DNA of 33,347 nt from Sulfurimonas sp. SAG-AH-194-C20 (lineage in GTDB: Bacteria; Campylobacterota; Campylobacteria; Campylobacterales; Sulfurimonadaceae). This document shows positions 1,202 through 29,780 of the stretch, piece after piece (within the stretch, counting starts at the first letter, position 1; each line of letters opens with the position of its first letter). The position numbers and the translations under genes are program-made. The notes under the pieces are model-generated. The model ran no database searches. It was not told the DNA's origin and was given only the letters and a program-made list of their open reading frames with translations. The stretch spans positions 1-33,347 of the forward strand of contig NZ_JAEMVD010000014.1 in the NCBI RefSeq assembly GCF_029215975.1, given 5' to 3'.

Positions 1202-1214
1202 ATTTAAGACTGTG

Positions 1215-3812: not shown

Positions 3813-3842
3813 TTAATTTCCTTAAAATTATTTTTTAACTAT

Positions 3843-4358: not shown

Positions 4359-4360
4359 AC

Positions 4361-5401: not shown

Positions 5402-5426
5402 AATTTCTCTCTTTATATTTTATTGT

Positions 5427-6566: not shown

Positions 6567-6585
6567 TGGATGTCCTATTCTTTGC

Positions 6586-6963
6586 CTATTTTAATGGTGA
6601 AATTCTAACAAAGTTATCATTAAAATCGACTTTGAAGCATGTAGTCCTGAGTGTGAGGATAGTTGTAGATGTATATTTAAAATTTACTGTGCTATCACTA
6701 TGTTTTAAACTAAGTCCTAATTTATGTATGTACTCAATAAACTCTTCCTTATTTATAGATAGAATTTTTCTAAGATTTTTATCATCACGTGTTTCAAATA
6801 TGATTGGATTATAGGCGTTACCATTGCATTTTTGCATAGCATGAGATATTTCTAGTGATTCGTTATAGAGAGTGGCATCTTTGACAAGGTATCTGTAGGA
6901 TATGAGGTATTCACTTGCATTTAATGCAAGTGAGAAAAGAAAAAAGAGTAGGCTTACTTGAAT
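6586..6963 (-). CDS. flgQ: FlgQ-like small exported motility protein, start codon unusual
   Basis: The first ATG (6837) would give an 83-residue protein. The same frame stays open upstream and encodes a convincing signal peptide (SLLFFLFSLALNASEYL) followed by SYRYLVKDATLYNESLEISHA, so the true product is about 120-125 residues. The open frame upstream of 6837 begins after a TGA inside flgP and contains no ATG, GTG or TTG. An ATT at 6961-6963, overlapping the flgP stop, would yield MQVSLLFFLFSLALNA. The start is therefore inferred. In C. jejuni flgQ is encoded with flgP, and both are needed for motility. Position between flgP and flgR is the main support. Cys residues lie in MQKCNGN and RTTCFKV. 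Confidence 0.6.
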   Translation of the reverse strand: MQVSLLFFLFSLALNASEYLISYRYLVKDATLYNESLEISHAMQKCNGNAYNPIIFETRDDKNLRKILSINKEEFIEYIHKLGLSLKHSDSTVNFKYTSTTILTLRTTCFKVDFNDNFVRISPLK

Positions 6964-7532
6964 TGAGTATGAGATATTACAATCTCCATCTCAACTTCAC
7001 AAAGTCCTTCTTTAAATGTAGTTTCAACGATATTTGCATTTCTAACCATTGCTGCAACAGAAGTACGTACTGTTGAACGTTTGACCATCATATTTTTAAT
7101 GAGGTCTTGCCCATCGATACGAACACCTTTTACTTTTTCAGCGATTAGTCTATATGCATCAGCAACAGCTGCACGTTTAGCAAGAGCATAAGCTTGTGCT
7201 GGTGAAGATGTATTCATGGGTGCTACACCCTGACCAACTACACTTATGAGCATTTTTTCTTCTGCAGCAAGTACATCTTCTTGTGACTGGACATCATTAA
7301 CTTCAGCTGTGAGAGATGCTACATTTTGTTTTTCTTGTGTTGCTTGAGTAGTGTTACTCTGAGAATATACAGGATAATTAACATTAATAGTTGATGTTGT
7401 TGGTACATTTACTGTCTGAACTTTTTGGGGTACAGATTCTGTTTTAACAGTTGATGTAGAAGTTGTTGCTGTATCAACAGCTTCTAAAGAGACAGCACTA
7501 AGAAGTGCTACTACTAATAATGAGTATTTCAT
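6954..7532 (-). CDS. flgP: FlgP-like flagellar LPP20-family protein
   Basis: A 192-residue exported protein. It has an N-terminal signal peptide (about 1-18, cleavage near LEA-VD), a Ser/Thr/Gln/Val-rich low-complexity stretch (about 19-80), and a C-terminal LPP20/FlgP domain (about 90-190, with AYALAKRAAVADAYRLIAEK and VRIDGQDLI). FlgP of C. jejuni is an outer-membrane-associated lipoprotein forming the large basal disk around the flagellar motor. No cysteine follows this signal peptide; the only Cys is 178, so it is not a lipoprotein as written. A good Shine-Dalgarno (AAGGATATTCA) precedes the ATG. It sits between gyrA and flgQ as in Campylobacter. Confidence 0.8.
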   Translation of the reverse strand: MKYSLLVVALLSAVSLEAVDTATTSTSTVKTESVPQKVQTVNVPTTSTINVNYPVYSQSNTTQATQEKQNVASLTAEVNDVQSQEDVLAAEEKMLISVVGQGVAPMNTSSPAQAYALAKRAAVADAYRLIAEKVKGVRIDGQDLIKNMMVKRSTVRTSVAAMVRNANIVETTFKEGLCEVEMEIVISHTQFK

Positions 7533-15189: not shown

Positions 15190-15218
15190 TGTAAGTGGTG
15201 ACCCCGAGGAGAATTGAA
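15190..15218. repeat. attL: 29-bp copy of the tRNA-Glu 3' end
   Basis: These 29 bases, including GGTGACCCCGAGGAG, are identical to 29700-29728. There they cover the CCA end, acceptor 3' strand and part of the T-arm of the intact tRNA-Glu, plus six flanking bases. Identity stops after GAATTGAA, so this is not a second tRNA but the displaced end left by integration. Confidence 0.9.
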
Positions 15219-15270
15219 AACCCTTGAAGGAATCCCCTTACTATAGGCTTCTAAAGTATATCTATCCTAA

Positions 15271-15310
15271 CCTCCCCATAATAGGGGTGACTACCCCTAT
15301 TAATACCTCT
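15271..15310 (+). promoter_or_regulatory. Shared regulatory motif, copy 1 (upstream of integrase)
   Basis: CCTCCCC, six bases, GGGG, fourteen bases, then AATACCTCT. The same parts recur at 17176-17219 upstream of the AlpA-like gene. This copy also contains a perfect 10-bp hairpin (TAATAGGGGT / ACCCCTATTA, 15279-15302, loop GACT). It is a candidate operator or integrase/excisionase arm site. Further inside, GAGTAACA is repeated at 15371 and 15382, 11 bases apart. Confidence 0.45.
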
Positions 15311-15407
15311 CAACCATTTATTATAATACAAAACTGATTACATATATTACTTATCAAAATTACACAAAGTGAGTAACAAATGAGTAACAGATTTTGGGAG
15401 ATAAATT

Positions 15408-16472
15408 ATGCCGTTTAAAAAAGTTGAGATAGGGATTTATTCGTACTATAAGCAAAGTGATGAAAGTAAAAAACATTTATATTATTACTATTCAACAACT
15501 GGTATAGATGGAAGAACAATTAAAGTTCGTAGTAAAAATACTGATATTAGAAAAGTTCGTACTGAGAGAGCAGGAGCTGACCTCAGAGAGGATATAGATG
15601 AATCTGTGGCTACAAATAGGAACTCAACACTTAATGAGGTAGCCAAGAATTATATTAGTAGTAAAACTGGTAAACCTATGCCTGATATTGAGTACAAAAA
15701 GTATCTAAAGCACTGCGAGTTTGGAATAGGTAAAAAGAAAATATCGGCTATAACAGATACAGATATAGCTAAATTTAAAGCTAAACTTATAGACCAAGGT
15801 ATGAAGCCAAGAGCAAGGATGATACAATTAAAAGCATTACTGAATTTTGGTGGTAGTAGTAGAAAAATAAAAATAGATAAGGTCAATTCATCTATTAAAA
15901 AGAGATTCTTTACAGAGGATGAATTACTCATAATATTTGATATGGCTAAAAGAATTCATCCTGAGTTGTATTTTTTTATGAAGATGCTTTTATATACTGG
16001 TCAAAGACCTAAAAATGTTTTGGAATTAAATGTTGATGATGTTCACTTGGATAGAAGTGTTATAGACTTTGGAGAGATTAAAGGTCAAGAAGAAGCAGAG
16101 ATACCAATATCTAAAAAAGTTAGACCATTACTTGAAGATTGGATAAAAAGTAAAACGGGTAGAATATTCAGACTAAGCCAAGATTATCTACAAGAATTAA
16201 GTCAAGAGATATTTGATGCATTTAATAAACCTTTATATTATATAGAATGTATGAGTAAAGAAGAGGAGAAACAAGCTAAAAAAGATGCCTACAAGTCTAA
16301 GAGACATCGTTGGAGTAGCTTTTATGGTTTACGACATACAACAGCCGTGAACATTATTAAAAATACTGGTTCAGTTTACAAGGCACAGCAAATGCTTAGA
16401 CATAGTGATATTAAGATGACAATGATTTATGCACAAGATGAAGACCAGCAAGGAACAGCAGATGCAATATGA
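15408..16472 (+). CDS. int: Tyrosine recombinase integrase of the island
   Basis: A 354-residue phage-type site-specific recombinase expected to integrate and excise the island at tRNA-Glu. An N-terminal DNA-binding part (about 1-160, with a SAM-like core-binding domain about 70-150) precedes the catalytic domain. Catalytic residues seen are Arg200 (YTGQRPKN), probable Lys225 (GEIKGQ), Arg309 (YGLRHT), His332 (LRHSD) and nucleophile Tyr341 (MIYAQ). The usual His of the HxxR box is Tyr306, a tolerated variation in some integrases. It begins 190 bases from attL and reads inward. Its end overlaps the next gene. Nothing suggests inactivation. Confidence 0.93.
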   Translation: MPFKKVEIGIYSYYKQSDESKKHLYYYYSTTGIDGRTIKVRSKNTDIRKVRTERAGADLREDIDESVATNRNSTLNEVAKNYISSKTGKPMPDIEYKKYLKHCEFGIGKKKISAITDTDIAKFKAKLIDQGMKPRARMIQLKALLNFGGSSRKIKIDKVNSSIKKRFFTEDELLIIFDMAKRIHPELYFFMKMLLYTGQRPKNVLELNVDDVHLDRSVIDFGEIKGQEEAEIPISKKVRPLLEDWIKSKTGRIFRLSQDYLQELSQEIFDAFNKPLYYIECMSKEEEKQAKKDAYKSKRHRWSSFYGLRHTTAVNIIKNTGSVYKAQQMLRHSDIKMTMIYAQDEDQQGTADAI

Positions 16473-17115
16473 TAAAGAAGACTTAATACAGTTTGAACAA
16501 CAAAAACAAGTCCTATTAGATATGAATGATAGTATAGATGAAGAGATATTTAATATCATTCCAGATAAAGTAAAAGTAGATATCAGTCATTTGATAGATA
16601 CTGAAAACTGTATAGATATTAATGTATATAGATTTATTAGTTATGCATTAGTTGGGTTAGATAGACTAAATAAAGCAGAAATGTATAGTAAAGATTTTAG
16701 TAGGGATTTAAAGTCACTGAAAAAGAAAGTTGATTTTTTATCAAGGCTATCGCCAGACCCAATAATAATAGAACTACCTGAGCCATTATCAGTAATTAAA
16801 GCAAAGTTTTATAGAGCCTGTAAAGTGATTAAAACACCTGATAAGTTAATAGGGGAAATATTTGATATTACATTAAATTGTAAAACATATAAAGGTAAAT
16901 TTTCTGAAAATGACATAAATTTCCCAAGCTCGGCTAAGGAAAAAGAGGAACTCAATATGATTAAATATTTAAATAGTATTCGAAAGGATGTTGAGGAAAA
17001 AGATGGAAGTATAAATGAAACAAAACTACTCAAATATAAAGAAAACTTTATGGATATCATTAATGCTAGCTACATTGAAGATAAGTACTACATCGGTAAA
17101 CCTGACTCAATATAG
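16462..17115 (+). CDS. Unknown island protein coupled to the integrase
   Basis: I do not recognise this 217-residue soluble, charged protein. The frame is open from an ATG at 16429 inside the integrase gene. I chose 16462 because AAGGA sits about eight bases before it and it gives only an 11-base overlap with the integrase. The N-terminal region (about 1-90) looks helical and charged, and ELPEPLSVIKAKFYRACKVI lies mid-protein. There is no signal peptide or membrane segment. Overlap implies translation together with the integrase, so a role in recombination control or element maintenance is possible but unproven. Confidence 0.65.
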   Translation: MQYDKEDLIQFEQQKQVLLDMNDSIDEEIFNIIPDKVKVDISHLIDTENCIDINVYRFISYALVGLDRLNKAEMYSKDFSRDLKSLKKKVDFLSRLSPDPIIIELPEPLSVIKAKFYRACKVIKTPDKLIGEIFDITLNCKTYKGKFSENDINFPSSAKEKEELNMIKYLNSIRKDVEEKDGSINETKLLKYKENFMDIINASYIEDKYYIGKPDSI

Positions 17116-17175
17116 TTAATATTACTAACTACTTAAAATAATCCCCGCTCATAAATAATGCACATATAATTCTTA

Positions 17176-17219
17176 CCTCCCCTTAATTGGGGAAGTCCAT
17201 TCTATACACCAATACCTCT
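17176..17219 (+). promoter_or_regulatory. Shared regulatory motif, copy 2 (upstream of AlpA-like gene)
   Basis: CCTCCCC, six bases, GGGG, eighteen bases, then AATACCTCT, repeating the arrangement seen at 15271-15310 but with four extra bases in the second spacer. It ends 39 bases before the ATG of the HTH gene, a natural place for autoregulation by an AlpA-type protein. Confidence 0.45.
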
Positions 17220-17258
17220 TAATAGCTACAATTCACTCATAACAAATAGGAGTATCAA

Positions 17259-17528
17259 ATGAGTAAAATAATTGGTCTTAAAGACATAATCAAACAAATA
17301 ACAGAGTCTTGGAATGGAAATCTATATGGAACAAAAATACAAAGTGCTAAAGCACTGGGTGTAAGTGTGACTACTATAGATAACTATCGTTCAATGGGTT
17401 TGCTGGAATCTGTTAAAAGAGGTGGAAAGGTTTACTTTTCAGCAGAGGTAATAGCAAGAGTTATTAGAGATGGTCTTGATGCAAGTGGTATGAGTACCCA
17501 TATTAAGACGGCATATAAAACAGCATAG
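17259..17528 (+). CDS. AlpA/excisionase-like HTH DNA-binding protein
   Basis: An 89-residue protein with a MerR/excisionase-type winged helix-turn-helix. The segment AKALGVSVTTIDNYRSMG (about 30-47) is the HTH, followed by a wing KRGGKVYFSAEVIARVI. Proteins of this size next to an integrase are usually excisionases or AlpA regulators; in Gram-negative PICI satellites AlpA switches on the element. AATAGGAG precedes the ATG. The CCTCCCC...AATACCTCT motif upstream, also found before the integrase, may be its binding site. Its exact role (Xis or activator) cannot be told from sequence. Confidence 0.75.
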   Translation: MSKIIGLKDIIKQITESWNGNLYGTKIQSAKALGVSVTTIDNYRSMGLLESVKRGGKVYFSAEVIARVIRDGLDASGMSTHIKTAYKTA

Positions 17529-17598
17529 TGTCAGAAACAGTGGTAATTGTAGTAAAGCAGTAGTAGTGAAAATAAAATATTCAAAAGGAGATTTAATT

Positions 17599-17643
17599 AT
17601 GACAGTATATTGTAATTGTTATCTTCTTTTGAGGAGAGTTTGA
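17599..17643 (+). CDS. Possible 14-codon leader ORF before the winged-helix gene
   Basis: AAAAGGAG is ideally placed before an ATG encoding MTVYCNCYLLLRRV and a TGA. The stop is one base from the ATG of the next gene, whose own Shine-Dalgarno (GAGGAGA) lies within the leader's last codons. This layout fits translational coupling or attenuation. The peptide itself may have no function, and no family is recognisable. Confidence 0.4.
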   Translation: MTVYCNCYLLLRRV

Positions 17644-17644
17644 T

Positions 17645-17968
17645 ATGAGCATAGTCAAATATAATCCAGCTCCAAATCAAGCACATACAAGATTACTTAG
17701 AGAAGATACTGATAACATTTCTAATAATGCTCTGGTAGTTTATTATAGACTTTTTGAACTGCATCCAGATTTTAATCCAATTGATAAAAGAATGATGGAA
17801 GTATGTAAAATGAGTGCAGTTACATATAAAAAAGCTAAAAAAGAATTGGTGGATGAATATCTTCTATTTGTGGAAAGAACGGGAGGGAAGGGAGCAAATA
17901 TAATCTATCATATAGGTTCAAAAGCAGTTAAAAAGATACTGGTAAAGAAAGGAAAAGAAGTATTTTGA
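17645..17968 (+). CDS. Winged-helix DNA-binding protein, possible replication initiator or regulator
   Basis: A 107-residue protein with a helix-turn-helix resembling the HTH_36/replication-protein winged-helix group. NNALVVYYRLFEL (about 27-39) and KRMMEVCKMSAVTYKKAKKELVDEYLL (about 48-74) form the helices, followed by a GGKGAN wing. It starts ATGAGC after GAGGAGA and may be coupled to a 14-codon leader. Three iteron-like repeats begin in its stop codon and run downstream, so it may bind them as a replication initiator or autoregulator. It is much shorter than typical phage replication proteins and has no primase or helicase domain. Confidence 0.6.
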   Translation: MSIVKYNPAPNQAHTRLLREDTDNISNNALVVYYRLFELHPDFNPIDKRMMEVCKMSAVTYKKAKKELVDEYLLFVERTGGKGANIIYHIGSKAVKKILVKKGKEVF

Positions 17969-18044
17969 AAAGTATAAAAACTATACCATTCCTAAGAAAA
18001 GTATAAAAACTATGCCTTTCTTGGAAAAGTATAGAAACTATACC
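17967..18044 (+). repeat. Three iteron-like direct repeats
   Basis: Copies of a 21-bp unit lie at 17967-17987, 17996-18016 and 18024-18044, spaced 29 and 28 bases start to start. Core sequences are GTATAAAAACTATACC, GTATAAAAACTATGCC and GTATAGAAACTATACC. The third has a perfect GTATAG-AAA-CTATAC inverted repeat. Regular spacing by nearly three helical turns suggests same-face binding by the adjacent winged-helix protein. Confidence 0.75.
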
Positions 18045-18374
18045 AACATAATAAAGACTACAAATGACTATTTTATCAGTGTAGTATTTTTACAAAAACA
18101 CTCAAGACATTTTATCTGTTCAGCAGTAGCTAAAGTGAAACTAGGTTTCAAGTTATCTAAAGCAACAAACAAATAAAGCTTGAGAAATGTTTTTATAAAA
18201 ATATACGAATCAATTACAATGGGTTAACTAACCCAAACCCGTTGAACTTGTTGAAGTTCAATCCAAAAAAAAAATCTATTATATTAAAATTATATAAGTC
18301 AACTGAATTAGTTTAAATTCATAAGAAATTATAAAATATTAGATATAATGTCATATAAATATAAAGGATATCAA
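18045..18374. other. Non-coding AT-rich region, candidate origin or regulatory region of the island
   Basis: About 330 bases without a supported gene follow the iteron-like repeats. It is AT-rich and holds two perfect inverted repeats: GGGTTA-AC-TAACCC (18221-18234) and TTGAACTT-GTTG-AAGTTCAA (18242-18261), the latter followed by a run of ten A. Repeats plus AT-rich DNA beside a small DNA-binding gene resemble a replication origin, but this is inference. Confidence 0.4.
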
Positions 18375-18899
18375 ATGATTAAATTAATACTACCAAGCAG
18401 ACCAGATGATGCTAGATTATCCATACAAGAATCAATTATTAAACAAATTGAGTCAAAGTACAAAGATGCAGTTCCTGAACAGTTAATGTTAGATAGAACT
18501 CAATATCTTGTTGAGTTAGAAAATGTAAAAGAAAAAATATTATCTCATACAACTAAAGCAGAAAAAATTATTCTTGAAAGAAAAGCAATGCTCAAACAAT
18601 GGGAACTATTTGTTAAAGATGTAAATAGTAGTGCTACGAAACATAATATTGATATTAAAGGACTCTCTATATCTGATGGTGCTCTTTTAACTGGTAGAAC
18701 TCTAGTGGATAAATTTAATTCTATGAATCCTGAAGTGGCTACTTATTCTGGAAAGAGAATTCCTCAGGTTCTGTCTGAGACTAAACTAGAAGATTTACAG
18801 ATAGAAGAATATGAAATTAATGTCAGTTTAGAAGTTGTTCAGAGAATGATAAAAGAAAAAGCACAACTGTATAGAGAGATGCTTGAACTTAGTGCTTAA
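18375..18899 (+). CDS. Unknown phage-type protein upstream of the terminase
   Basis: A 174-residue soluble protein I cannot assign. I chose the ATG at 18375 since AAAGGA lies six bases before it, whereas the ATG at 18348 has no Shine-Dalgarno. It is charged and probably largely helical (about 15-85 and 140-174), with a middle part SISDGALLTGRTLVDKF. It is followed 25 bases later by the terminase small subunit and is likely co-transcribed with both terminase genes. By position it could be an accessory packaging or DNA-modulating protein, but no motif supports this. Confidence 0.65.
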   Translation: MIKLILPSRPDDARLSIQESIIKQIESKYKDAVPEQLMLDRTQYLVELENVKEKILSHTTKAEKIILERKAMLKQWELFVKDVNSSATKHNIDIKGLSISDGALLTGRTLVDKFNSMNPEVATYSGKRIPQVLSETKLEDLQIEEYEINVSLEVVQRMIKEKAQLYREMLELSA

Positions 18900-18924
18900 G
18901 TAGGAATAAGGTAGGTAAAATATT

Positions 18925-19281
18925 ATGACTCAAAAAATGCTCAACTTTTGTATAGCATATGTTTCAACACATAATGCAAGGGAATCATCATTAGTAGCAG
19001 GGTACTCAAAACAATATGCTCAAAAGAAATCCCACCTACTTTTAAGAAATGAAGAAGTAAAAAATAAAATAACTTACCTGGAAGAGAAATTTTATAGAGA
19101 TGAGTTTAAAAAGTTGGCATTAAAATCAGTACAAAAACTGGATGATATTTTATCTTCAACTGAAAGTGAAAGTGTTCAACTGGGAGCAGTTAAACTAGCT
19201 CTTGAACTTAGCGGTGTTAGTGAACGAGAAAATAGTACACAATCAATTTCAATAAAAGTGCAGTTACCAAATGACTTATAA
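18925..19281 (+). CDS. Phage terminase small subunit (TerS)
   Basis: A 118-residue protein with the terminase small-subunit pattern. An N-terminal helix-turn-helix with ARESSLVAGYSKQYAQKKSHLLLRNEEV split over about 18-45 is followed by a central coiled oligomerisation region (about 45-100). TerS recognises the packaging site and feeds DNA to TerL. Its stop overlaps the TerL start by 11 bases, the classic order. It is somewhat short for the family but apparently complete. In PICI-type satellites an own TerS redirects packaging toward satellite DNA, which makes its presence here informative. Confidence 0.8.
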   Translation: MTQKMLNFCIAYVSTHNARESSLVAGYSKQYAQKKSHLLLRNEEVKNKITYLEEKFYRDEFKKLALKSVQKLDDILSSTESESVQLGAVKLALELSGVSERENSTQSISIKVQLPNDL

Positions 19282-20560
19282 TATTGACCTCTCAAACATA
19301 AAAGATTTAATGACACCAAAGGGCTATGATATGCTCAAAGTGGAAAGTAGGTATTTAATATCATATGGTGGAAGTGGAAGTTCAAAAAGCTACAGTGCAA
19401 CACAAAAGATTCTTTTTAGAATATTAACTGAAAAAAATCATAGAATATTAGTTTTAAGGAAGACAGCACGAAGTTTAAAGAAATCAGTCTTTCAGTTATT
19501 TAAAGAGGTAATAAAAATATGGAATGTCGAAGAACTTTTCGATTATAACCTTACAGACTTAACGATAACTTGTAAAAATGGTAACTCTATTATTATGAAT
19601 GGACTTGATAATGTTGAACGACTGAAGAGTATATCATCTGTGTCTAGCTTGTGGCTGGAAGAGGCTAGTGAGGTAACATATCAGGATTTTATCCAGCTTG
19701 ACTTACGCTTAAGAGGCTACAATGCCAGTTATTTCCAATTACTATTAACATTTAACCCTACTAGCAGTAATAGTTGGTTGAAGAAGCGTTTCTTTGATAA
19801 TCAAGATGATAAAACAAAAGTAGTTCACTCAACATTCTTAGACAACCCTTTCTTAGACTTAGAGTATAAAGACATTCTTGAATCTCTCATTTCCCAGAAT
19901 AAAAATATGTATGATATTTACTGTAAGGGAATTTGGGGTACACTCAAAGGGGTGATATTTGAAGACTATCAAGTAGTATCTGATTTACCTAGCATTTATG
20001 ATAAAAAATCATATGGCGTTGATTTTGGATTCCAGCATTTTATGACTTTTATTGAGGCTAGAACGGTTGGAAGTGATGTATATTTTAAAGAGCTTTACTG
20101 CAAGACAGAATCATTAGTAAGTGATTTAATTGCATTTATGAAAGAAGAAGGAATAGCTGAAGATGCTCAAATTTTTGCAGATTCTGCCCGTCCTGATTTG
20201 ATAACTTCCATCCAAAATGCTGGATTTAAACACTGCCAAAAAGCAAACAAATCAGTTTTGGGAGGTTTGGATTATATGCTATCACTAAATATAAAAGTGA
20301 CTAGTAACAGCACAAATCTTATTAAGGAGTTAGATTTGTATAGTTGGAGCTTAGATTCAAATGGGGAGCCCCTTGATAAACCTGTCAAAATGTTCGACGA
20401 TTGTATTGATTCTTGCAGATATAGTATCTTTAGAAATGAACCAATTCAAATATCAATAGCAAATATTACAAGTAGAAGAAACAATTACAATTATGATGGC
20501 TATGATGATAAAGAGCTTTACCAAAGAGTAGCAGTGAATAATAATTTTTCAGGATATTAA
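19271..20560 (+). CDS. Phage terminase large subunit (TerL)
   Basis: A 429-residue DNA-packaging motor of the PBSX/Terminase_3 type. ATPase domain: Walker A GGSGSSKS (33-40), Walker B LWLEE (127-131), and a coupling motif near TFNPTSS (160-166). Nuclease domain: Asp251 (GVDFGF), Asp304 (FADSARPD) and Asp376/377 (KMFDDCID), the expected RNase H-fold metal ligands. Both active sites look intact and the length is normal, so there is no sign of decay. The next genes in a phage would be portal and capsid; here a methyltransferase follows instead. Confidence 0.9.
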   Translation: MTYNIDLSNIKDLMTPKGYDMLKVESRYLISYGGSGSSKSYSATQKILFRILTEKNHRILVLRKTARSLKKSVFQLFKEVIKIWNVEELFDYNLTDLTITCKNGNSIIMNGLDNVERLKSISSVSSLWLEEASEVTYQDFIQLDLRLRGYNASYFQLLLTFNPTSSNSWLKKRFFDNQDDKTKVVHSTFLDNPFLDLEYKDILESLISQNKNMYDIYCKGIWGTLKGVIFEDYQVVSDLPSIYDKKSYGVDFGFQHFMTFIEARTVGSDVYFKELYCKTESLVSDLIAFMKEEGIAEDAQIFADSARPDLITSIQNAGFKHCQKANKSVLGGLDYMLSLNIKVTSNSTNLIKELDLYSWSLDSNGEPLDKPVKMFDDCIDSCRYSIFRNEPIQISIANITSRRNNYNYDGYDDKELYQRVAVNNNFSGY

Positions 20561-20810
20561 AATTTACCTACTTTTTTGATGTGTTACTTATAAGGAATGT
20601 GTAACAAAACAATAACTATGCCTATTTCACTTACTTACCCAAAGAGTTCATCACTCCTATATTAATATATATGATGTGATTTAGGCTTTATATCAATAAA
20701 ACTATATATATATGTTAAGCAATTTAAATTTAAATATAAAATATTCTTACAGGACACTTTAAGAACACAATCGATATAATCCAAAGAAAATTATAAATAA
20801 TTGGATTACA
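20561..20810. other. Intergenic region between TerL and methyltransferase
   Basis: Some 250 AT-rich bases without a gene. It includes a weak hairpin (TGTTAC 20582-20587 with GTAACA 20601-20606), the alternating tract CTATATATATAT near 20702, and a good -10 box GATATAATC around 20775-20780, placed 30 bases before the methyltransferase start. No clear -35 is seen. A packaging site could lie here but cannot be recognised. Confidence 0.35.
20775..20780 (+). promoter_or_regulatory. Putative -10 box for the methyltransferase gene
   Basis: A perfect TATAAT preceded by GA, 30 bases before the TTG start. A -35 is not evident, which is common for sigma-70 promoters in Campylobacterota. It would give the methyltransferase its own transcript, separate from the terminase genes. 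Confidence 0.45.
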
Positions 20811-22064
20811 TTGGTTATATTAGATTTATTTTCAGGTGCAGGAGGACTATCAGAAGGTTTTTTTCGTACTAATAGTACCTTTGTTGGTCATGTTGAAGCA
20901 GATAAAAATGCTGCAAATACACTACGTACTCGTACAGCTTATTGGAAATTGAAGAATGAAGACAAGCTTGATATTTATAATGACTATCTTTTAAAAAATA
21001 TATCGAGAGAAGAACTTTGGAATTATGCTGATGTAGCTAACTCCAATGATGTAATTAATACATTTATTGGAGATGATACATTTGATGATATCACTAAAAA
21101 AATAAAACAAAATCTCAAAAATAAAAAAATAAAAAATGTAGATTTAATTATTGGTGGACCTCCTTGTCAAGCTTATTCGGTTGTTGGAAGAGCTAGAATG
21201 AAAGATGCTGTTACTTGTGACCCTCGTAATTTTCTTTATAAATATTATATACGATTTTTAGAAACTTTTAAACCAAAAATGTTTATATTTGAAAATGTCC
21301 CAGGAATGATGAGTGCCGCTAATGGAAAACATTTTAATGATATTAAAATTGCTATTGAAAAAGCTGGTTATCACATGGAACTTCAAGAACTTTCAGCATC
21401 TGATTATGGTGTTCTTCAAGATAGAAAAAGAATTATTATTGTTGGTTGGAAAAAAGATAAACGACAAAAGTATTATTCTTATCCAAAGTTTGAAACTATA
21501 GAAAAAAAATATTTAGTACAAGAAGCTTTAGATGATTTACCAAAAACAAAACCTGATAAAATGATTGAAGGTAAAGGAAAATATAGAACTAAAACTAATC
21601 AATATCTTATTGACTCAAATATTAGAGAAGAAGGTTTTGATATTCTTACTCAGCATGAAACAAGAATGCATAATGAAAGAGACCTAGAAATTTATAAAGA
21701 AGCTATCATAGCTTGGACAGAAAATAAAAAGCGCTTATGCTACAAAGAACTTGCGAGTAGAAGGCCAGAACTAATTACACATAAAAATATCACTTCATTT
21801 ACAAATAGATTTAATGTAGTAAAAAGTGATATGCAAGCTTCTCATACAGTTCTTGCTCATATAGCTATGGATGGACATTATTATATTCATCCAGATATTA
21901 CACAGTTGCGGTCCCTTTCAGTTAGAGAAGCAGCAAGGCTCCAATCCTTTCCCGATAATTTTTATTTTGAAGGTCCAAGGAGTTCTCAATTTAGACAAAT
22001 TGGAAATGCAGTTCCACCTAAAATGGCAGAGCAAATTGCAAAAAAAATTAAGGAAATTATTTAG
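20811..22064 (+). CDS. C5-cytosine DNA methyltransferase
   Basis: A 417-residue Dcm-type enzyme that methylates cytosine C5. Motif I is DLFSGAGGLSEGF (5-17). Motif IV, GGPPCQAYS, holds catalytic Cys119. Motif VI is FENVPG (160-165) and motif VIII QDRKRIIIVG (203-212). Motif IX is in RLQSFPDNFYF, and motif X in QIGNAVPPKMAEQI near the C-terminus. The start is TTG with GGA six bases upstream. It converges on the ATPase-Z1-DUF4420-AIPR operon and presumably marks self DNA for that system. The target-recognition region (about 215-350) gives no readable specificity. Confidence 0.95.
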   Translation: MVILDLFSGAGGLSEGFFRTNSTFVGHVEADKNAANTLRTRTAYWKLKNEDKLDIYNDYLLKNISREELWNYADVANSNDVINTFIGDDTFDDITKKIKQNLKNKKIKNVDLIIGGPPCQAYSVVGRARMKDAVTCDPRNFLYKYYIRFLETFKPKMFIFENVPGMMSAANGKHFNDIKIAIEKAGYHMELQELSASDYGVLQDRKRIIIVGWKKDKRQKYYSYPKFETIEKKYLVQEALDDLPKTKPDKMIEGKGKYRTKTNQYLIDSNIREEGFDILTQHETRMHNERDLEIYKEAIIAWTENKKRLCYKELASRRPELITHKNITSFTNRFNVVKSDMQASHTVLAHIAMDGHYYIHPDITQLRSLSVREAARLQSFPDNFYFEGPRSSQFRQIGNAVPPKMAEQIAKKIKEII

Positions 22065-22168
22065 ATTATGGATATTTTTTTGAATTGGCGAATTTATTCG
22101 AATAAGATATATTCCAAGCTTTCATTCTGCTATACTGTCTTTTATTTAGTAAAAATTAACTCCATGCT

Positions 22169-22190
22169 AACTATAAAATTATTTTTAGTT
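22169..22190. terminator. Weak bidirectional terminator between convergent genes
   Basis: AACTATAAAA and TTTTTAGTT pair with one bulge around a short AT loop, in the 159-base gap between the convergent methyltransferase and AIPR genes. It has A-runs and T-runs on both sides but an AT-rich stem. Confidence 0.35.
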
Positions 22191-22223
22191 TAACAATAAT
22201 AATATTGGAGTGGTAACTTAAAT

Positions 22224-24281
22224 CTACCATATACTTTTCATGCCTTCATCTTCTAATTTTTTTATAATTTGTACTATGCGTTTTGATTGTTTATCAGAAG
22301 GATATTTATTAGTTGGAATTAAATTTAAAAAATTTATTTCTTCAGGAGATAGTTCATTGTGAGTATTCCCCCATTCTATAATTCCACTCCATTCAGCTGG
22401 TGTAAATTTATATAATTTTTTTAATAATTCCATTTCGTTATCAATTTTCTGTTCTTTTTTAGATTCTTTATTCTCGTAGTCTAACTCTTTTTTTGTAATC
22501 ATTTTTTTTAAAAAATTATTTGATAGTGAGATTGTATCTGAAGTATTAATTATATCCTTTAATTTATCCCAGCAACCATCTTTTTTACACCATTCTGAAA
22601 TATTTGTGACCTTCTCTGGGGTTGTAGATATAAAACTATTGATATATTTACTTATTCTTTTAATTTCTTCTTCAAAATAAGGTTCTATACCTTGTATCTT
22701 CCAGGTATGAGTATAATCCAGACTTAATCCTTCTTTTGACAATAGGTATGAAATTGTAGATAATGTATAAGCAACTATATTAGCTTTATATCCTCCATAC
22801 CATGGTTCTTTATAAACTATTTTATCACAAGTTTTAAATATGATAATTTTTGCAATAGTGTGAATAAAGTACATATCATTAAATTCTTTATCATTTTTAT
22901 TCCATCTTGGAACAATGATATTTCCAAATTCCATAAAGTTTTTTTGAGCACCACGACTTACTATTTGTGGCTTATTTTCCCATACCATAAGGAATTTAGC
23001 TAAATCTGTTTTTGAGAATAACTGAGGCTTAGGATGTATCTCTTTAAATTCTCTTTTTTTAGCTTCTGTAAGTTTTGATTGAGTTTCAAGATATTGTCCT
23101 CTTGCTCTTTCATAAAACCATTTTGTTTTTTTCAACTCCCCTTCTTTAGCAGGAGCCCAGATTCGTCTTGATTTTTCTTCCATTCTAATATGGAATATAT
23201 CATTAGAAAAGAAATCGGCATCATTTACCTTATTTTGAGTGTTAGCAAACCTTGATATATTTGGTACGACTTCATTCACTTTATCATCATTGATTATTGT
23301 TAATTTCATTTGTACAAAAATATCAGATAAATCAACTTTATCCATTTTCATCGTATTGAATAAAGAAGCTGTTGTTTGACCACCATTTACAATTTGAAAG
23401 TTCTTTAATTTTTTAATTTTATTATCAGATGTAATTTCAATATCTTCAGCAGTCGCTGTTAAACCATTGTTGTATGCAAAAAACATACTAGGATTTTCAT
23501 TTATTGTTTTTCGAATCCCTTTATTAATTTTTGCTCTAAATTGTAAGAAACTTCGAACATTTGATTCTAATAATCTAGAACCATATTTTTCATATAGTTT
23601 AGCAAGGACATCCCCGCTTATAACACACAGATATGAGTGATAAGGTGATGAAGCGATATGAGCTGGTAGCGATGGGATAAGAGTATTAAAATCTTTTTCA
23701 AAATCTATTTCTAAAGTTTCTTTTTTATTTTTAGAAGTTTCAATTTCATAGAACCTTTTAATTTCCCAAATATCATATGTAACCTGATAGTCTTTAATCT
23801 GTTCAGATGGCAACTTTTTAACACTTTTACTTAGTTGCTTATTGCTTATTAGAATAATATTAATTGATTTAAATCTATTTTGATTATTATAAAGAAAATA
23901 TGAAACTGCATACCCTGGAGAAGTCTCTTCAAGTTCATCATAGAAATGTTTTTCTATTGAATAGTTGAAAAATTTAGTCAATCTTTTTATATTAATTTCT
24001 ATTTCTGACTTAGTTAAAGTTTTTAATTCATAATCATCTTCAAAGTCACAAATAAATAAATTTAGAACTTCTCTATCCTCTATAAATTCATAGCCATCTA
24101 TCTTCATACCAAGACTTTTATGCCTAAAAGGTAAATATGTATAATCTTCTACTGTTCCATCATCAATAAGATATTCGATTGATTTTTCAAAGAACTGACT
24201 TTCTTTAAAGTCTTCTCCTACATCAGCGGATGTATAAATTTGCTGTATAAAATCATCATAAAATTCTTCGAGTTCATTCAT
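22224..24281 (-). CDS. AIPR family protein (abortive-infection phage resistance)
   Basis: A 685-residue protein with the AIPR (PF10592) core at about 238-380: LESNVRSFLQF, NENPSMFFAYNNGLTATAE and the signature NFQIVNGGQTTASLF (294-308). An N-terminal segment (about 55-85, MKIDGYEFIEDREVLNLFICDF) may be part of a nuclease-like fold. AIPR proteins occur in abortive infection loci and in R-M-linked clusters. It is the last gene of the minus-strand operon; its ATG overlaps the DUF4420 gene stop as ATGA, with AAAGGAAAAGAG upstream. It is probably an effector or nuclease component. Its biochemical activity is not established by the sequence. Confidence 0.88.
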   Translation of the reverse strand: MNELEEFYDDFIQQIYTSADVGEDFKESQFFEKSIEYLIDDGTVEDYTYLPFRHKSLGMKIDGYEFIEDREVLNLFICDFEDDYELKTLTKSEIEINIKRLTKFFNYSIEKHFYDELEETSPGYAVSYFLYNNQNRFKSINIILISNKQLSKSVKKLPSEQIKDYQVTYDIWEIKRFYEIETSKNKKETLEIDFEKDFNTLIPSLPAHIASSPYHSYLCVISGDVLAKLYEKYGSRLLESNVRSFLQFRAKINKGIRKTINENPSMFFAYNNGLTATAEDIEITSDNKIKKLKNFQIVNGGQTTASLFNTMKMDKVDLSDIFVQMKLTIINDDKVNEVVPNISRFANTQNKVNDADFFSNDIFHIRMEEKSRRIWAPAKEGELKKTKWFYERARGQYLETQSKLTEAKKREFKEIHPKPQLFSKTDLAKFLMVWENKPQIVSRGAQKNFMEFGNIIVPRWNKNDKEFNDMYFIHTIAKIIIFKTCDKIVYKEPWYGGYKANIVAYTLSTISYLLSKEGLSLDYTHTWKIQGIEPYFEEEIKRISKYINSFISTTPEKVTNISEWCKKDGCWDKLKDIINTSDTISLSNNFLKKMITKKELDYENKESKKEQKIDNEMELLKKLYKFTPAEWSGIIEWGNTHNELSPEEINFLNLIPTNKYPSDKQSKRIVQIIKKLEDEGMKSIW

Positions 24282-25258
24282 TGCTCTTTTCCTTTAATGG
24301 TAAATAATTTATCTTTTAATAAAAAGCTTTTGCAGGTGTCTAAATTTATCCTATATGTGAGTTTTTCAATTCCCTCTGGAATTTCAGAGACTTTAGGAAA
24401 ATCATCTGTTACCGTATAAAATTCATCCGATGTAATAATAAAATAAAAATCCTCATATTCTGAAAGTTCTATAAAACCATATTGCATTAATAAGTTGTTA
24501 AACTTATCAATAAGTGATAAGTCATCTAAACCTATTAGCTCTTTAATATCATTAACCATATCATAAATAGTAAATGATTCAGCTGTATTTTTTGTTGCTT
24601 CTGTGAGTGTTACAACAAATAAATATAAAGTATTTAATTCTGTAAATAGTTGCTCATAAGATGAGATAGTCACACTATTTACAGAAGATTTTGTTTTCAC
24701 TTCAATTGTCATTGAATCTATTTCAAAGTCTTGCACAGACTGTAAAGGAGCTTTCCAAAACTCTAATACTTCGTTTGAACTATACTTCTTCAATAGATGT
24801 TTTTTTATTAAATATAATTCGCCAATTAAACCCTTTAAGTGTTTTTTATCTATGATTTTTCTAGAGCTCTTTAGAAAGTATTGCCACTTTTCTAATCTTT
24901 TAAGGATTGACCTAATTGCTAATGTTTCATTGTCTAAATTATGGGTAGATTTTAATAAGTCCTTGCATAGAGTATAAAATATATCTTTATCAGCTATTGA
25001 AGATAATGTTAATAACAATTGGTTTGTAAAGTCAATAGAACCAACAGATATAGATATACCATTTAAAGCAGGAATTTTTTGATTAATAATAACCTTTGAT
25101 TGAGTATGCAAGATAAATAATAAATTTCCAAATGAATCTTTTGCCCAATAAAACTCAAGTAAATTATCCTTATCAGCAAGAACAGCATTAAAATTTATAT
25201 TAGCTTGCGGTTCTTCAATATTTAACCAAGGGTTATTATTCATTTTCATCATCTTCAT
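24278..25258 (-). CDS. PD-(D/E)XK nuclease-like protein (DUF4420)
   Basis: About 325 residues of the DUF4420/PF14390 type. The nuclease-like core has an N-terminal Glu in KGLIGELYLIKK, Asp in QDFEIDSM and IEVKTK, the ExK pair, about 10 residues on, followed by SISSYEQL-like sequence. These fit a PD-(D/E)XK active site. The 5' end lies in the Z1 gene end. Candidate starts are TTG 25270 and ATGs at 25258, 25252, 25249 and 25243; the choice among them is arbitrary. The 3' end overlaps the AIPR gene start by four bases. It is predicted to be the DNA-cleaving subunit of the defence module. Confidence 0.82.
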   Translation of the reverse strand: MKMMKMNNNPWLNIEEPQANINFNAVLADKDNLLEFYWAKDSFGNLLFILHTQSKVIINQKIPALNGISISVGSIDFTNQLLLTLSSIADKDIFYTLCKDLLKSTHNLDNETLAIRSILKRLEKWQYFLKSSRKIIDKKHLKGLIGELYLIKKHLLKKYSSNEVLEFWKAPLQSVQDFEIDSMTIEVKTKSSVNSVTISSYEQLFTELNTLYLFVVTLTEATKNTAESFTIYDMVNDIKELIGLDDLSLIDKFNNLLMQYGFIELSEYEDFYFIITSDEFYTVTDDFPKVSEIPEGIEKLTYRINLDTCKSFLLKDKLFTIKGKEQ

Positions 25259-27890
25259 TCTCTGTATCAAAATTATTTTTCAACCAAGTGTTATTTACTT
25301 TATAGGTAACAGAATTAATTTTCCTACCACCACTTGATTGACCTGGAAAGCTTATTCCATATGCAACAACGGCTTGTAAATTATTTGGATAATCATCTTC
25401 TGTATCTTTCTTTTTGATTTTTAATATATGTAAAATAAGTAAAGGTTTCGTCTTAATTCTTCGATAATCTACACCACTAAGGGATTTACCATTTAATGAT
25501 TTCTTTAGATTTTCAATATTTTCTAATCCTATTTTTTCATCACTTACACTACCAACTCTTGATTTATTACCACTAATTTGTAAGGTTGCATTATCAATAA
25601 AAGATGACCTCATTTCTTTATAAATAGTTATACTATCTGATATTTTATATGGGTCACTATCTTTTTTACTATTAGAGATAATTGTGACATCAAAACTAGT
25701 TATATTTTGAGATATTAAATATTTTTCAATTGTACTAGCATCCGTTTTTATATTTAATGGATGATTTTCATATGACTTAATAAAACCCAATATACTATCA
25801 ACTTGTATATCTTTCCAAAGTAAATTTTTCGTTTCATTTTTATCTCTTTGGGAATTTGGTAAATTTGAGATAAATTTTTTAAGATTATCTAAATTAGCTT
25901 GTATTTTTTTATCATTATTACTGATTTTTCTTGTTTCTATCAACTCTCCATAATAATTTATAGAGATAGTAGCATCACTAGAGTGAAACATTTTATTTCT
26001 GGCCGTTATGATTAGGGATTCATCATGGTTTTTTACTTTTAACCCATATTGACGAGGAGTCAAATCATGGTCATTCATGATTTTAAATTCTTCTTTTAAT
26101 TCTTCAGTTGCTTCTGATATGTGCTTATACCATCCTATAGCTTCTTCTCTCATATATAGTCTGCATAAATCGTCATATCCATTTCTGTACCCAAACCATC
26201 TTCCCATTTGTAATAGGGTGTCATACATTTGTGAGTTTCTTAAAAAATAGCTTACAGTAAGTCCTTCTATTGTAAATCCCCTTGATAAACTATATCCACC
26301 GATTGTTATGGCATTTAATCCTTCTTCATTGTAGTTATCATAGTTCAGTTTTTCTTCTTGAGTTTTTTTACTATTAATTAAAAAAACTTTTATCAGTTGT
26401 TCATTTTGATTTATTTGTTCTAACACATCTTGAAATTTTGTTTTTTCATCTTTAAACTCTTTTAACCAACAAGAGTATAATAAGTTTATTTTTTCATTTT
26501 TTATCATCTCTTTTATAGATTTTTTATAGTTATATTTAATATGTTTTTTTATTATTTCTAAATATTCAACAACCAACTCTTTTACCTGTTCTTGAATGGC
26601 AATTCTAAAAGACACATTTATAAGCATAGATGAGTGTAGATTCTTGTTTCTTCTTAGTTTTCTAATTCCTGTCGCAAGTAAATAAGTATTTATTGCTTCA
26701 TATAAACTATATGGTAAGCAATCTACAATGTCGTCTTTTTTTAATTTTACATCTAAACAAATCTCATTATCATCAATAAGTCTCAATACATTATTTTTTG
26801 TATTAAATATTTGCTCTGCGCCTATGTAGTTGCTTGGGCTTTCTAGTGAAACAATAAAATCTTCTGGGAATAAATCATCCCCATACTCATCTGTCTTACT
26901 TTCTGGATTTATAAAAATATTTGCGAATGGTGTTGCTGTATATCCTACATAACTTCTCTTTTGAAACATTTGTAAAATTTGTCTAATTTGTCTATTAATT
27001 GTTGTAGTTTCATTTGGGTTTTTTTTCGTATTGATAGAAGCATTATCTGCTTCATCATCTATTAAGAGCATAGGATATGTGGAATAGGCACTTCTTGTCT
27101 TGTTTGTTTCTAGCCAGTCCAATAGATTTTTAAGTGTGGAAGAGTTTTTCTTTATAACTAAAATTACAGGTACAGTAGAATTTTCAGGATTGAAATTTAG
27201 AGAAGTTGCAATGTCTTTTTTAAAATCATATTTAGTGCTTGTAAATGAAAAAGGTCTGTTATCAAAGCCATACTTACTTACACCAATATCTTCTCCAAGA
27301 ATTGTATCAAAACCTATGAATCCTCCATTGACTCTTGACTGTGTTTGCATTCGTAGATTATTATGGATACCTGCAATTAATATAATAAGTTTATATCCTA
27401 CATCGGCAGCTTTATTGATTAAGGCTAAATAGTTGGCAGTTTTACCAGATTGAACATTACCCATAACTAGCCCTTTTTTAATACATGCTGTATCAATATT
27501 TGGGTTAGTCATAAAATCTAATGTTTCCTCTGTTGTTTTAAAAATTTTGTCTACGACTTGTCTGGAAAAACCTTCATCTGTATTCAAATAATTTTTATAT
27601 CTGTCGGAGTAATATGTAGATGGATTGTCTAATGTATGCAACCATGGCTCTTTATCTTTGGACATAATTGTTGAAGCACGAGGTATTGTTATTGTTTCTT
27701 CGGAATGGATTTCTCTACTTAAATGTTTAATATCATCTTCTGATAATCTGCACCCTAATAAGTCTAATTCATCAGCTTTTATTTTCAGTAGTTTTTCAAC
27801 AAAGTTAATTTCAGGAATAAATCCTTGTTCTTTTTGGTCTAAAAATCCTTTAACTAATTTTCTTGCTTTTTCTAAACATTTTATATTCAT
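25236..27890 (-). CDS. Z1-domain SF2 helicase-like ATPase
   Basis: An 884-residue protein with superfamily-2 motifs and the Z1 domain (PF10593). Walker A is VMGNVQSGKT (about 142-151), Walker B LLIDDEAD (about 275-282), motif III GYTATPFA (about 316-323). Motifs V/VI appear in GYSLSRGFTIEGL and LLQMGRWFGYR (middle of the protein). I chose the ATG at 27890: it overlaps the upstream ATPase stop as ATGA and has GGAG upstream, whereas 27917 lies deeper in the previous gene. Z1 proteins are found with MORC/MutL-type ATPases, PD-(D/E)XK and AIPR proteins. It likely translocates on or remodels DNA for cleavage. Confidence 0.9.
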   Translation of the reverse strand: MNIKCLEKARKLVKGFLDQKEQGFIPEINFVEKLLKIKADELDLLGCRLSEDDIKHLSREIHSEETITIPRASTIMSKDKEPWLHTLDNPSTYYSDRYKNYLNTDEGFSRQVVDKIFKTTEETLDFMTNPNIDTACIKKGLVMGNVQSGKTANYLALINKAADVGYKLIILIAGIHNNLRMQTQSRVNGGFIGFDTILGEDIGVSKYGFDNRPFSFTSTKYDFKKDIATSLNFNPENSTVPVILVIKKNSSTLKNLLDWLETNKTRSAYSTYPMLLIDDEADNASINTKKNPNETTTINRQIRQILQMFQKRSYVGYTATPFANIFINPESKTDEYGDDLFPEDFIVSLESPSNYIGAEQIFNTKNNVLRLIDDNEICLDVKLKKDDIVDCLPYSLYEAINTYLLATGIRKLRRNKNLHSSMLINVSFRIAIQEQVKELVVEYLEIIKKHIKYNYKKSIKEMIKNEKINLLYSCWLKEFKDEKTKFQDVLEQINQNEQLIKVFLINSKKTQEEKLNYDNYNEEGLNAITIGGYSLSRGFTIEGLTVSYFLRNSQMYDTLLQMGRWFGYRNGYDDLCRLYMREEAIGWYKHISEATEELKEEFKIMNDHDLTPRQYGLKVKNHDESLIITARNKMFHSSDATISINYYGELIETRKISNNDKKIQANLDNLKKFISNLPNSQRDKNETKNLLWKDIQVDSILGFIKSYENHPLNIKTDASTIEKYLISQNITSFDVTIISNSKKDSDPYKISDSITIYKEMRSSFIDNATLQISGNKSRVGSVSDEKIGLENIENLKKSLNGKSLSGVDYRRIKTKPLLILHILKIKKKDTEDDYPNNLQAVVAYGISFPGQSSGGRKINSVTYKVNNTWLKNNFDTENEDDENE

Positions 27891-29326
27891 ATTACATTCT
27901 CCATAAATATCAGCCAATCTTTAGTGTATATGTTAAACGGTTCAGTTGATTTAAAATATTTTATGAATTCATCATCTGTCATAAAATCTTGTTCCATTTT
28001 AATCTTATTATTTGCCATCTCTTCTAGTTCTATATCTGGAATTGATATTGGATTAATATCTTTAGGATTATTATTTCCAATATCAGAGTATAAAGCATCT
28101 TTTGGGAAAAACCCACCTATTAAATTTAATATATTATTAAATTCACTCGCTTGAGAATCACTTAGGTCTTCAATAAATTTTTCAATAAAAGGATGTTCTT
28201 TATTTATTGTATAATTTATTTCACCCCTAGCACTATGTCTTTCCCAAAATGCACTGTTAGAGCTACTACTTTTATGACCTCTTGCTCTATAAACTCTAGT
28301 AGAAGTACCTGCGATTTTTTCAATAATTTTTTTTAATCTTTGTCTTATGATAGATGGAGGAGAAGCATTTGATTTTTTAACATCAATTTTCCATAGATGG
28401 TCTAAACTATTCGGTAAATCTATTTGAATTCTCGCTAATTTATACATCTCAGATTGAGGAATTAATCTGAACCAAGTGCCTGATACAAGAAGCCTTTTAT
28501 TTCTATAAACATAAAATCCTTGATTTTTCAAATAACCACCTTCGCCTGCATAATAATCATATTCATGAGCAGAAATCTTAGTATAGTGCGGTAGTATGTA
28601 TGGTTTTATGATTATTTTTGAATTATTTATAGTTATTATTTCTTCAGTTAAGTCTTGTGTCGCAGTGTGTTTTGTATGAAAAGGGTCAAAAGGTTTTAAT
28701 TGTACGTCATTTATAAAAATATTTACTTTATTTTTACCTTTTAAATATCTATGAAAAACTAGTTCAAGATGTTTCTGTACAGAATCTATTTTCTCATATA
28801 CTATGTCTTCTGTAAGTGAGGAAACAGTATTGTCAATAATTCTATCTGTATCTTCCCATAGTACTAGTGTACCACTCTCTTGCATTGAATTAATTTTATA
28901 GATATTTGAAATTTCACTCTCATCAAGTATCTGCAATGACCAATCTTCTGTTTTAGCAACAAAATCTAAATCCCATTTTGCAGATATTTTATTGTTGTAT
29001 TGTGATGATACAACAGTTAATTTTCTGCATTGAGAAAATGAGGCAGTTTTTAATCCTAAGCCAAAACGACCTAAATCATTTTCACTACGAGTATCCAATG
29101 GATTTTTACTACCAGCTCTCATCGCTTCAATAATTTCTGATTCAGTCATTCCGTAACCATCATCAATAATAGCTAAAGACAAGTTTTGATTGTGAAAATC
29201 AAAATAAATTTTTATATTTTTTGCATTAGCTGTAATACTATTATCAATAATATCAGCAATAGCACTTTCAAAAGAATATCCTATATCACGAAGTGATTCT
29301 ATTAATGATGAAGCTTTTGGTAGCAC
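27887..29326 (-). CDS. MORC/MutL-type GHKL ATPase of the defence module
   Basis: A 479-residue GHKL (Hsp90/MutL-fold) ATPase. The N box ESAIADIIDNS (20-30) holds Glu20, Asp28 and Asn29; the G1 box is IIDDGYGM (53-60); the lid/G2 region is LGRFGLGLKTA (85-95). An S5-like transducer region follows (about 200-330). Bacterial relatives sit in R-M clusters and were proposed as ancestors of eukaryotic MORC ATPases. It is first in the operon. The called start is a GTG lacking a clear Shine-Dalgarno. AAAGG occurs 5-8 bases before an in-frame ATT-ATA pair five to six codons upstream, so the true N-terminus may be slightly longer. Confidence 0.9.
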   Translation of the reverse strand: MLPKASSLIESLRDIGYSFESAIADIIDNSITANAKNIKIYFDFHNQNLSLAIIDDGYGMTESEIIEAMRAGSKNPLDTRSENDLGRFGLGLKTASFSQCRKLTVVSSQYNNKISAKWDLDFVAKTEDWSLQILDESEISNIYKINSMQESGTLVLWEDTDRIIDNTVSSLTEDIVYEKIDSVQKHLELVFHRYLKGKNKVNIFINDVQLKPFDPFHTKHTATQDLTEEIITINNSKIIIKPYILPHYTKISAHEYDYYAGEGGYLKNQGFYVYRNKRLLVSGTWFRLIPQSEMYKLARIQIDLPNSLDHLWKIDVKKSNASPPSIIRQRLKKIIEKIAGTSTRVYRARGHKSSSSNSAFWERHSARGEINYTINKEHPFIEKFIEDLSDSQASEFNNILNLIGGFFPKDALYSDIGNNNPKDINPISIPDIELEEMANNKIKMEQDFMTDDEFIKYFKSTEPFNIYTKDWLIFMENVI

Positions 29327-29699
29327 TTGAATTCGTTTTATAATATAAACCTTTGCAAATTTAAAGTAATGTTTTTATATTGTAATATTTATTTCCAAGA
29401 ATAAACTTTAATATCTAATAATAGTATCTAATACAGACTATTTTATTCTCTTTTGAAACATTATACAAAGAAGATGTCAAAGTATCTTAATAATTTAAAC
29501 TTAAAGTAGTTTATAGATAGTACAAGATTAATTAGATGAAAATTATATTTAATTTTTAGAATTTGTGAAATATCTAATGAAGTAGGGTAGTTCTAAGGAA
29601 TTTTCCTATATACTTTTGGACTTTAAGTAATATTTTGAGTAATATTTTAGTTTATATGTGTTGATTAAATACGGTATTTATGGAGTAGGTTGATGTTAT
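29327..29699. other. Non-coding right arm of the island
   Basis: About 370 AT-rich bases between the ATPase gene start and attR, with no supported gene. It should contain the promoter for the leftward ATPase-Z1-DUF4420-AIPR operon; TACAAT on the minus strand near 29380 is a possible -10 box. Close to attR, AGTAATATTTT is directly repeated at 29626-29636 and 29638-29648, 12 bases apart, which could be an integrase arm site. Confidence 0.4.
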
Positions 29700-29728
29700 T
29701 GTAAGTGGTGACCCCGAGGAGAATTGAA
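29700..29728. repeat. attR: 29-bp repeat overlapping the tRNA-Glu 3' end
   Basis: Identical to 15190-15218. It includes the CCA end, acceptor 3' strand and T-arm start of tRNA-Glu (minus strand), so the tRNA stays intact after insertion. Identity breaks inside the T-arm, after GAATTGAA. Confidence 0.9.
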
Positions 29729-29780
29729 CTCCTGTAACATGGATGAAAACCATGGATCCTAACCGCTAGACGACGGGGCC
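29706..29780 (-). tRNA. tRNA-Glu (TTC)
   Basis: Read on the minus strand it begins GGCCCCGTCGTCTAGCGG and ends CGGGGTC-A-CCA, 75 bases with encoded CCA. The anticodon stem CATGG/CCATG encloses TTTTCAT, giving anticodon TTC. The acceptor pairs GGCCCCG with CGGGGTC, one G-T wobble. The discriminator base is A. Its 3' end is the island attachment site. Confidence 0.95.

Follow-up and report, generated by a model that had tools for sequence, protein, structure and literature searches.

A putative phage satellite of Sulfurimonas that encodes both terminase subunits and no virion

The satellite P4 borrows the large terminase of its helper. SaPIs and PLEs, which share the general satellite plan, are both described as reliant on the large terminase of a phage: PLEs have none of their own, and SaPIs, which may carry a small terminase subunit (TerS), depend on that of the phage (PMC7567579). 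Gram-negative PICIs combine a site-specific attachment site, an integrase (int), AlpA, a replication module, an optional TerS and right-end accessory genes with an absence of virion genes (PMC6092414). In PICMIs, int, an integrase-overlapping gene (iolg), alpA, a small ORF and a replication gene follow one another, anti-phage cargo is terminal and there is no capsid remodelling gene; their excision needs AlpA, Int and the product of the overlapping gene (PMC10803314). Both terminase subunits occur in cfPICIs, together with head genes (PMC10690885), the full set comprising HNH, portal, protease, capsid and adaptors (PMC10690885, PMC13230959). They are also carried by the Streptomyces satellites MulchRoom and MiniFlayer, which have portal and capsid and no replication genes (PMC10690885). 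Between borrowers of the helper large terminase (TerL) and carriers of terminase plus capsid there is a gap, which a capsid-less satellite with a motor of its own fills. None with its own TerL was found in the open-licence literature, which is no proof of absence; the Antarctic Pseudomonas satellite AH14b, considered as a precedent, carries no terminase.

The window, i.e. the whole 33,347-nt stretch of Sulfurimonas DNA analysed here, is contig 6 of a 1.63-Mb MAG that is 66% complete. A preliminary description had placed a satellite-like element at 15408-20560. These limits proved too small: a perfect 29-bp direct repeat, TGTAAGTGGTGACCCCGAGGAGAATTGAA, is present at 15190-15218 and 29700-29728, so that the integrated element spans 15190-29728 (14.5 kb) and contains the defence genes, including the MZA cargo. 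The longest repeat over 20 Markov simulations with the same dinucleotide make-up was 18 nt, compared with the 29 bp observed. GC content is 28.6% in the element and 34.5% in the flanks. Boundaries and anatomy were thus read directly from the DNA, with the following features.

15190-15218 (no strand): attL, 29-bp direct repeat, copy of the tRNA-Glu 3′ end, identical to 29700-29728
15408-16472 (+): tyrosine integrase (PF00589 1.3e-21, 78 bits; phrog_1)
16429-17115 (+): 228-aa ORF with a 44-nt overlap with int, without family match, placed like PICMI iolg
17259-17528 (+): AlpA/MerR-like HTH regulator or excisionase (HTH_17 5.9e-5; phrog_66)
17645-17968 (+): DnaD-like winged-helix (wHTH) protein, putatively an initiator or loader of replication (weak PHROG match, phrog_270 7e-4, to replication initiators)
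17967-18048 (no strand): three 25-nt iterons, putative origin, GTATAnnnnnTATAC core in two of three
18348-18899 (+): u183, helical protein, homologues (4e-8) adjoining TerS on its upstream side in two satellites with TerS alone
18925-19281 (+): TerS, small terminase subunit (PF03592 2.1e-10, 42 bits; phrog_51)
19271-20560 (+): TerL, large terminase subunit (PF04466 1.2e-49, 169 bits; phrog_3717/phrog_2)
20811-22064 (+): C5-cytosine DNA methyltransferase (PF00145 3e-67; best PADLOC model DrmMII, PDLC02649 528 bits)
22224-24281 (-): MzaE-like AIPR protein (PF10592 3.7e-96; PDLC02207 6.5e-75)
24278-25270 (-): MzaD-like PD-(D/E)XK protein, DUF4420 (PF14390 1.7e-60; PDLC02206 2.6e-17)
25236-27917 (-): MzaC-like protein (PDLC02205 2.8e-124)
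27887-29326 (-): MzaB-like ATPase (PDLC02204 4.5e-82)
29700-29728 (no strand): attR, 29-bp direct repeat, inside the tRNA-Glu 3′ end
29706-29780 (-): tRNA-Glu (ttc), integration site

The 29-bp repeats at tRNA-Glu, together with the element's own integrase (PF00589), correspond to the site-specific integration of Gram-negative PICIs. No empty attachment site in a close strain was found; in the genomes checked, the gene left of attL lies away from tRNA-Glu, and an empty site was therefore not demonstrable.

The integrase, AlpA-like gene, wHTH gene, iterons, TerS and TerL, all named in the preliminary description, were recovered at their places by Pfam and PHROG matches, in the order int, int-overlapping ORF, AlpA-like, DnaD-like wHTH, iterons, u183, TerS, TerL and C5 methylase, followed on the other strand by MzaE-D-C-B. 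An AlpA/MerR-type regulator, as in Gram-negative PICIs, is present: its HTH_17/phrog_66 match lies under the Pfam cut-off, and the protein is homologous (37%) to the AlpA-like ORF of locus L007. Instead of a primase/Rep module with its characteristic origin, the element has the DnaD-like wHTH protein and the iterons; this wHTH protein is 64% identical to the product of the same-place gene in the minimal element of genome G191, which itself lacks both terminase genes. Compared with Gram-negative PICIs, which are further marked by induction that depends on a phage and by transfer at high frequency, the element adds TerL, lacks a primase-type Pri-Rep, has other putative initiators and resides in a Campylobacterota host. 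PICMIs, in turn, have a DUF3987-type primase, usually lie next to fis and lack TerS and TerL, whereas int and an AlpA-like gene are accompanied here by no primase and by a tRNA-Glu site. Nothing in the Pfam or PHROG searches matched the P4 alpha primase, Sid/Psu/Delta or Vis of P4-like satellites. As for u183, there was no match among 50,697 phage records, its profile found zero relatives in IMG/VR, and its predicted structure was of too low confidence for interpretation.

The right end carries the defence cargo. PADLOC assigned homologues of MzaB, MzaC, MzaD and MzaE in one operon, as in the MZA defence system, and MzaA was not among the assigned genes. Unlike in that system, the accompanying C5 methylase lies on the opposite strand, and its best score is to DrmMII.

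Pfam and PHROG searches detected no head, tail or lysis gene in the element. Moreover, 404 proteins from the TerL neighbourhood of related phages gave zero tblastn matches to the element at E 0.01, and the same queries recovered their counterparts in phage controls. The absence of portal, capsid, tail and lysis genes proposed in the preliminary description is therefore borne out at the level of both genes and traces. In this respect the element resembles Gram-negative PICIs and has neither the portal, head, tail or lysis genes, or remnants of these, expected of a prophage nor the cfPICI cassette of capsid, portal, protease and adaptors with HNH, of which TerS and TerL alone are present. MulchRoom and MiniFlayer, with portal and capsid and without replication genes, have the reverse complement of functions. 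Since the element lacks the primase of PICIs and PICMIs and the capsid genes of cfPICIs, we file it outside all three families, as a variant of phage satellite.

Both active sites of TerL are intact, in agreement with what had been read from the sequence before. The protein retains both Walker motifs, A (G33GSGSSKS40) and B (W128LEEASE), as well as the nuclease's acidic residues D251, D304 and D380, and it deviates at one of 45 conserved columns (K117R), conserved being defined as kept in at least 85% of ~75 related TerLs. Sequence and fold searches led to the TerL of phage D6E, Sf6 gp2 and the nuclease domain of SPP1 G2P. The AlphaFold model contains both domains (pLDDT 85), and its nuclease domain superposes on SPP1 G2P at 2.2 Å. 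TerL accordingly combines the Walker A/B ATPase and the RNase H-like nuclease with acidic triad that characterise Terminase_3. Sequence integrity is thus a direct observation.

Among 228 genomes of the family Sulfurimonadaceae, TerLs at 46-51% identity were found only in G085 and in G124 (WFPU01000234.1, deposited as Sulfurimonas sp. and assigned to the genus of the window), giving only three TerL-bearing copies with the window included. In G085, int and an ORF overlapping it are followed by AlpA, putative Rep, TerS, TerL and small cargo genes, and the 7 kb past TerL contain no structural gene; there was no convincing repeat on the right, so that this end is undefined. G124 has AlpA, wHTH, putative Rep, TerS and TerL, and its contig stops 54 nt after TerL, which leaves room for a portal gene there. 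The preliminary description had proposed that the same gene order would recur with differing cargo at tRNA genes of other Campylobacterota. This largely held: AlpA-putative Rep-TerS-TerL recurs in two more Sulfurimonas-group genomes, but int was seen only in G085, the G124 contig being too short to show it. Pairwise Nei-Gojobori comparison of the three satellite TerLs gave dN of 0.46-0.56 and dS of 1.7-4.2 (saturated), i.e. dN/dS of at most ~0.12-0.33. These values, below the dN/dS near 1 that had been named as counting against the satellite reading, indicate that the satellite TerLs are under purifying selection and not drifting.

The TerLs of the window, G085 and G124 group together in the tree as a 100/100 clade; the terminal branch of the window TerL is longer (0.78 against 0.41 and 0.52 for the other two), a point against the satellite reading. 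Ten of the loci nearest to this clade were annotated, and all ten have a portal, head-morphogenesis or head-tail adaptor gene right after TerL. Scanning IMG/VR with the TerL sequence alone gave no relatives; a three-row TerL profile gave 80 loci, and the annotated ones have portal or head genes adjoining TerL. Sampling 397 genomes across the phylum and 399 across the order yielded only G556, G666 and G421 in addition; G556, a phage, has head genes, and the TerL of G421 is interrupted by stops. Locus L045, whose ORF lengths suggested a capsid-less candidate, was rejected: the 746-aa ORF on its minus strand is spurious, and the plus strand continues with a portal-like ORF.

That TerL adjoins a defence operon in the window, and that satellites commonly interfere with the packaging of their helpers (PMC6092414, PMC10690885), would suit a different role, in which the terminase pair is kept so that TerL or TerS competes with or poisons packaging by an infecting phage, or acts in the defence locus as a sensor or decoy. 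We regard this as quite improbable, because the two catalytic centres are conserved along with the TerS partner, and G085 has TerL without MZA.

TerS of the window's clade was found in five genomes: the window, G085, G124, G171 (TerS only) and G098 (two elements, TerS only). Their six TerS proteins group in a clade (100/99) that is separate from phage TerS and consists of satellites only, three members carrying TerS without TerL; for the window TerS itself, tblastn against 50,697 phage records gave no match. Of the two G098 elements, one lies at tRNA-Met, is bounded by 31-bp repeats and encodes Vsr along with an HpaII-type restriction system; the other lies at tmRNA with a 20-bp repeat and encodes two N6-methylases. 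In both, a u183 homologue lies directly upstream of TerS. With their other restriction-modification cargo and their own repeats at tRNA-Met and tmRNA, these sisters largely bear out the proposed conservation of a block with exchangeable cargo. The opposite outcome, in which relatives always include capsid genes, did not occur, since capsid-less relatives exist. Relatedness was thus established directly.

One rival reading, also raised in the preliminary description, is a prophage remnant, in which a temperate phage was stripped of head, tail and lysis genes but retained int, regulators and terminases, and later received the defence genes. TerL does descend from TerLs of SPP1/PBSX-type phages, and int-AlpA-like and DnaD-like genes occur in prophages too. 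We nevertheless consider such an origin unlikely: tblastn revealed no structural remnants, both terminase genes are intact, the nearest TerLs lie in capsid-less or satellite-like loci and not in prophages, TerS and u183 are common to elements without TerL, and TerS is without counterpart in the phage records searched.

About 25 of the 228 genomes have the backbone but no packaging genes with it. With a profile of the putative Rep, a protein that has no Pfam match, relatives were detected in 25/228 family genomes, in the stretches inspected mostly behind an integrase and an AlpA-like gene. Where repeats were found, the Rep-bearing elements measure ~4-7 kb, and they occupy tRNA-Ser, tRNA-Leu, tmRNA or sites near dnaG. 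At the other extreme, in locus L140 of G207, the same AlpA-Rep backbone leads into a cfPICI-type cassette of head-tail adaptor, head-closure protein, major head protein, HNH, TerS, TerL and portal. The existence of L140 could suggest that the element is a deletion derivative of a cfPICI that lost portal and capsid and kept TerS and TerL. However, the L140 TerL is phrog_9 and its TerS phrog_83, against phrog_3717/phrog_2 and phrog_51 in the window. As the L140 TerL comes from another family, the window pair is not simply a leftover of the L140 cassette, and the window's TerS type is also found in TerS-only elements, making this derivation very improbable. The lineage thus comprises elements in four states: without packaging genes, with TerS alone, with TerS and TerL, and with a full capsid-forming cassette.

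The att repeats, the intact TerS and TerL, the lack of structural remnants and the sister satellites with shared parts support the satellite reading first put forward from the sequence, with function inferred. The locus is probably an integrated phage satellite of PICI/PICMI type, with genes for TerS and TerL but none for a virion. On the best reading it works like a PICI or PICMI, supplies the two terminase subunits itself and takes procapsids and tails from a helper. In the cycle that we infer, a helper phage would trigger AlpA, and Int, AlpA and perhaps the int-overlapping protein would excise the element, which the wHTH protein would then replicate from the iterons with host enzymes. The satellite TerS would pick satellite DNA and pass it to its own TerL, which would dock on the portal of a helper procapsid and fill it, likely by the headful mechanism, judging from its SPP1/PBSX-like type. 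Having its own TerL would remove the need for TerS to fit the helper TerL, so that nothing but portal, procapsid, tail and lysis would have to be stolen, and the methylase and MZA genes may shield the host cell from other phages. A search of the five host genomes for a resident helper found no PF05133 (SPP1-type), PF04860 (HK97-type) or nearest-type portal; these are weak negatives, as portal families are diverse and the window MAG is 66% complete. The absent resident portals would also be accounted for by a virulent helper of the sort that PICMIs and PLEs have.

We lean towards regarding the element as a distinct class of satellite, capsid-less with a complete functional terminase (TerS and TerL), in a Sulfurimonas lineage that includes every step from none through TerS and TerS plus TerL to a capsid-forming cassette. 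If so, there are satellites that steal only procapsid, tail and lysis, and the lineage shows how capsid-forming satellites could arise stepwise. A testable question is whether a satellite TerL can dock on a foreign portal; if it can, the fit between TerS and TerL rather than that between TerL and portal would limit satellite host range. Together, these results make Sulfurimonas satellites carriers of defence systems and add a satellite lineage in the environmentally important Campylobacterota, untreated in the satellite literature surveyed.

The backbone common to related Sulfurimonas-group satellites (AlpA-like gene and putative Rep) bears a cfPICI-type head cassette in one fetched locus, L140 (G207:C283; all coordinates are within the named locus):

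17-7132, adaptor, head closure, capsid, HNH, TerS, TerL and portal

A minimal element, comprising an integrase, a 191-aa ORF, an excisionase-like protein and a wHTH protein, lies at 1325-4923 of L195 (G191:C30). Its wHTH is 64% identical to that of the window, and the element is adjoined by a CheY-like gene related to the one left of the window attL. Directly 3′ of the putative Rep, three small satellites encode a Mu Gam-like DNA-end protection protein:

L139, 116-625, Mu Gam-like protein
L143, 7784-8269, Mu Gam-like protein
L135, 3-290, Mu Gam-like protein

Satellite cargo adjoining tRNA-Met in L163 (G098:C1; 7810-10355) consists of a Vsr nuclease, a C5 methylase and an HpaII-type restriction enzyme. 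In L149 (G218:C1; 8379-11147), a DnaG-type primase gene adjoining a satellite attachment repeat contains an intein with matches to Hom_end, LAGLIDADG and splicing domains.

Among phage loci, the ORF immediately 3′ of TerL in L025 (2120-2872) is built from many short repeat copies resembling KSIEAGEWIKAG. Three stops interrupt TerL in L103 (G421:C96; 2632-5983), where ParA- and ParB-like genes adjoin; this locus is possibly a decayed phage-plasmid. A prophage in L010 (G032; 16362-19372) carries a reverse transcriptase-like protein and a variable C-lectin-like protein, both judged by eye, and the pair suggests a diversity-generating retroelement.
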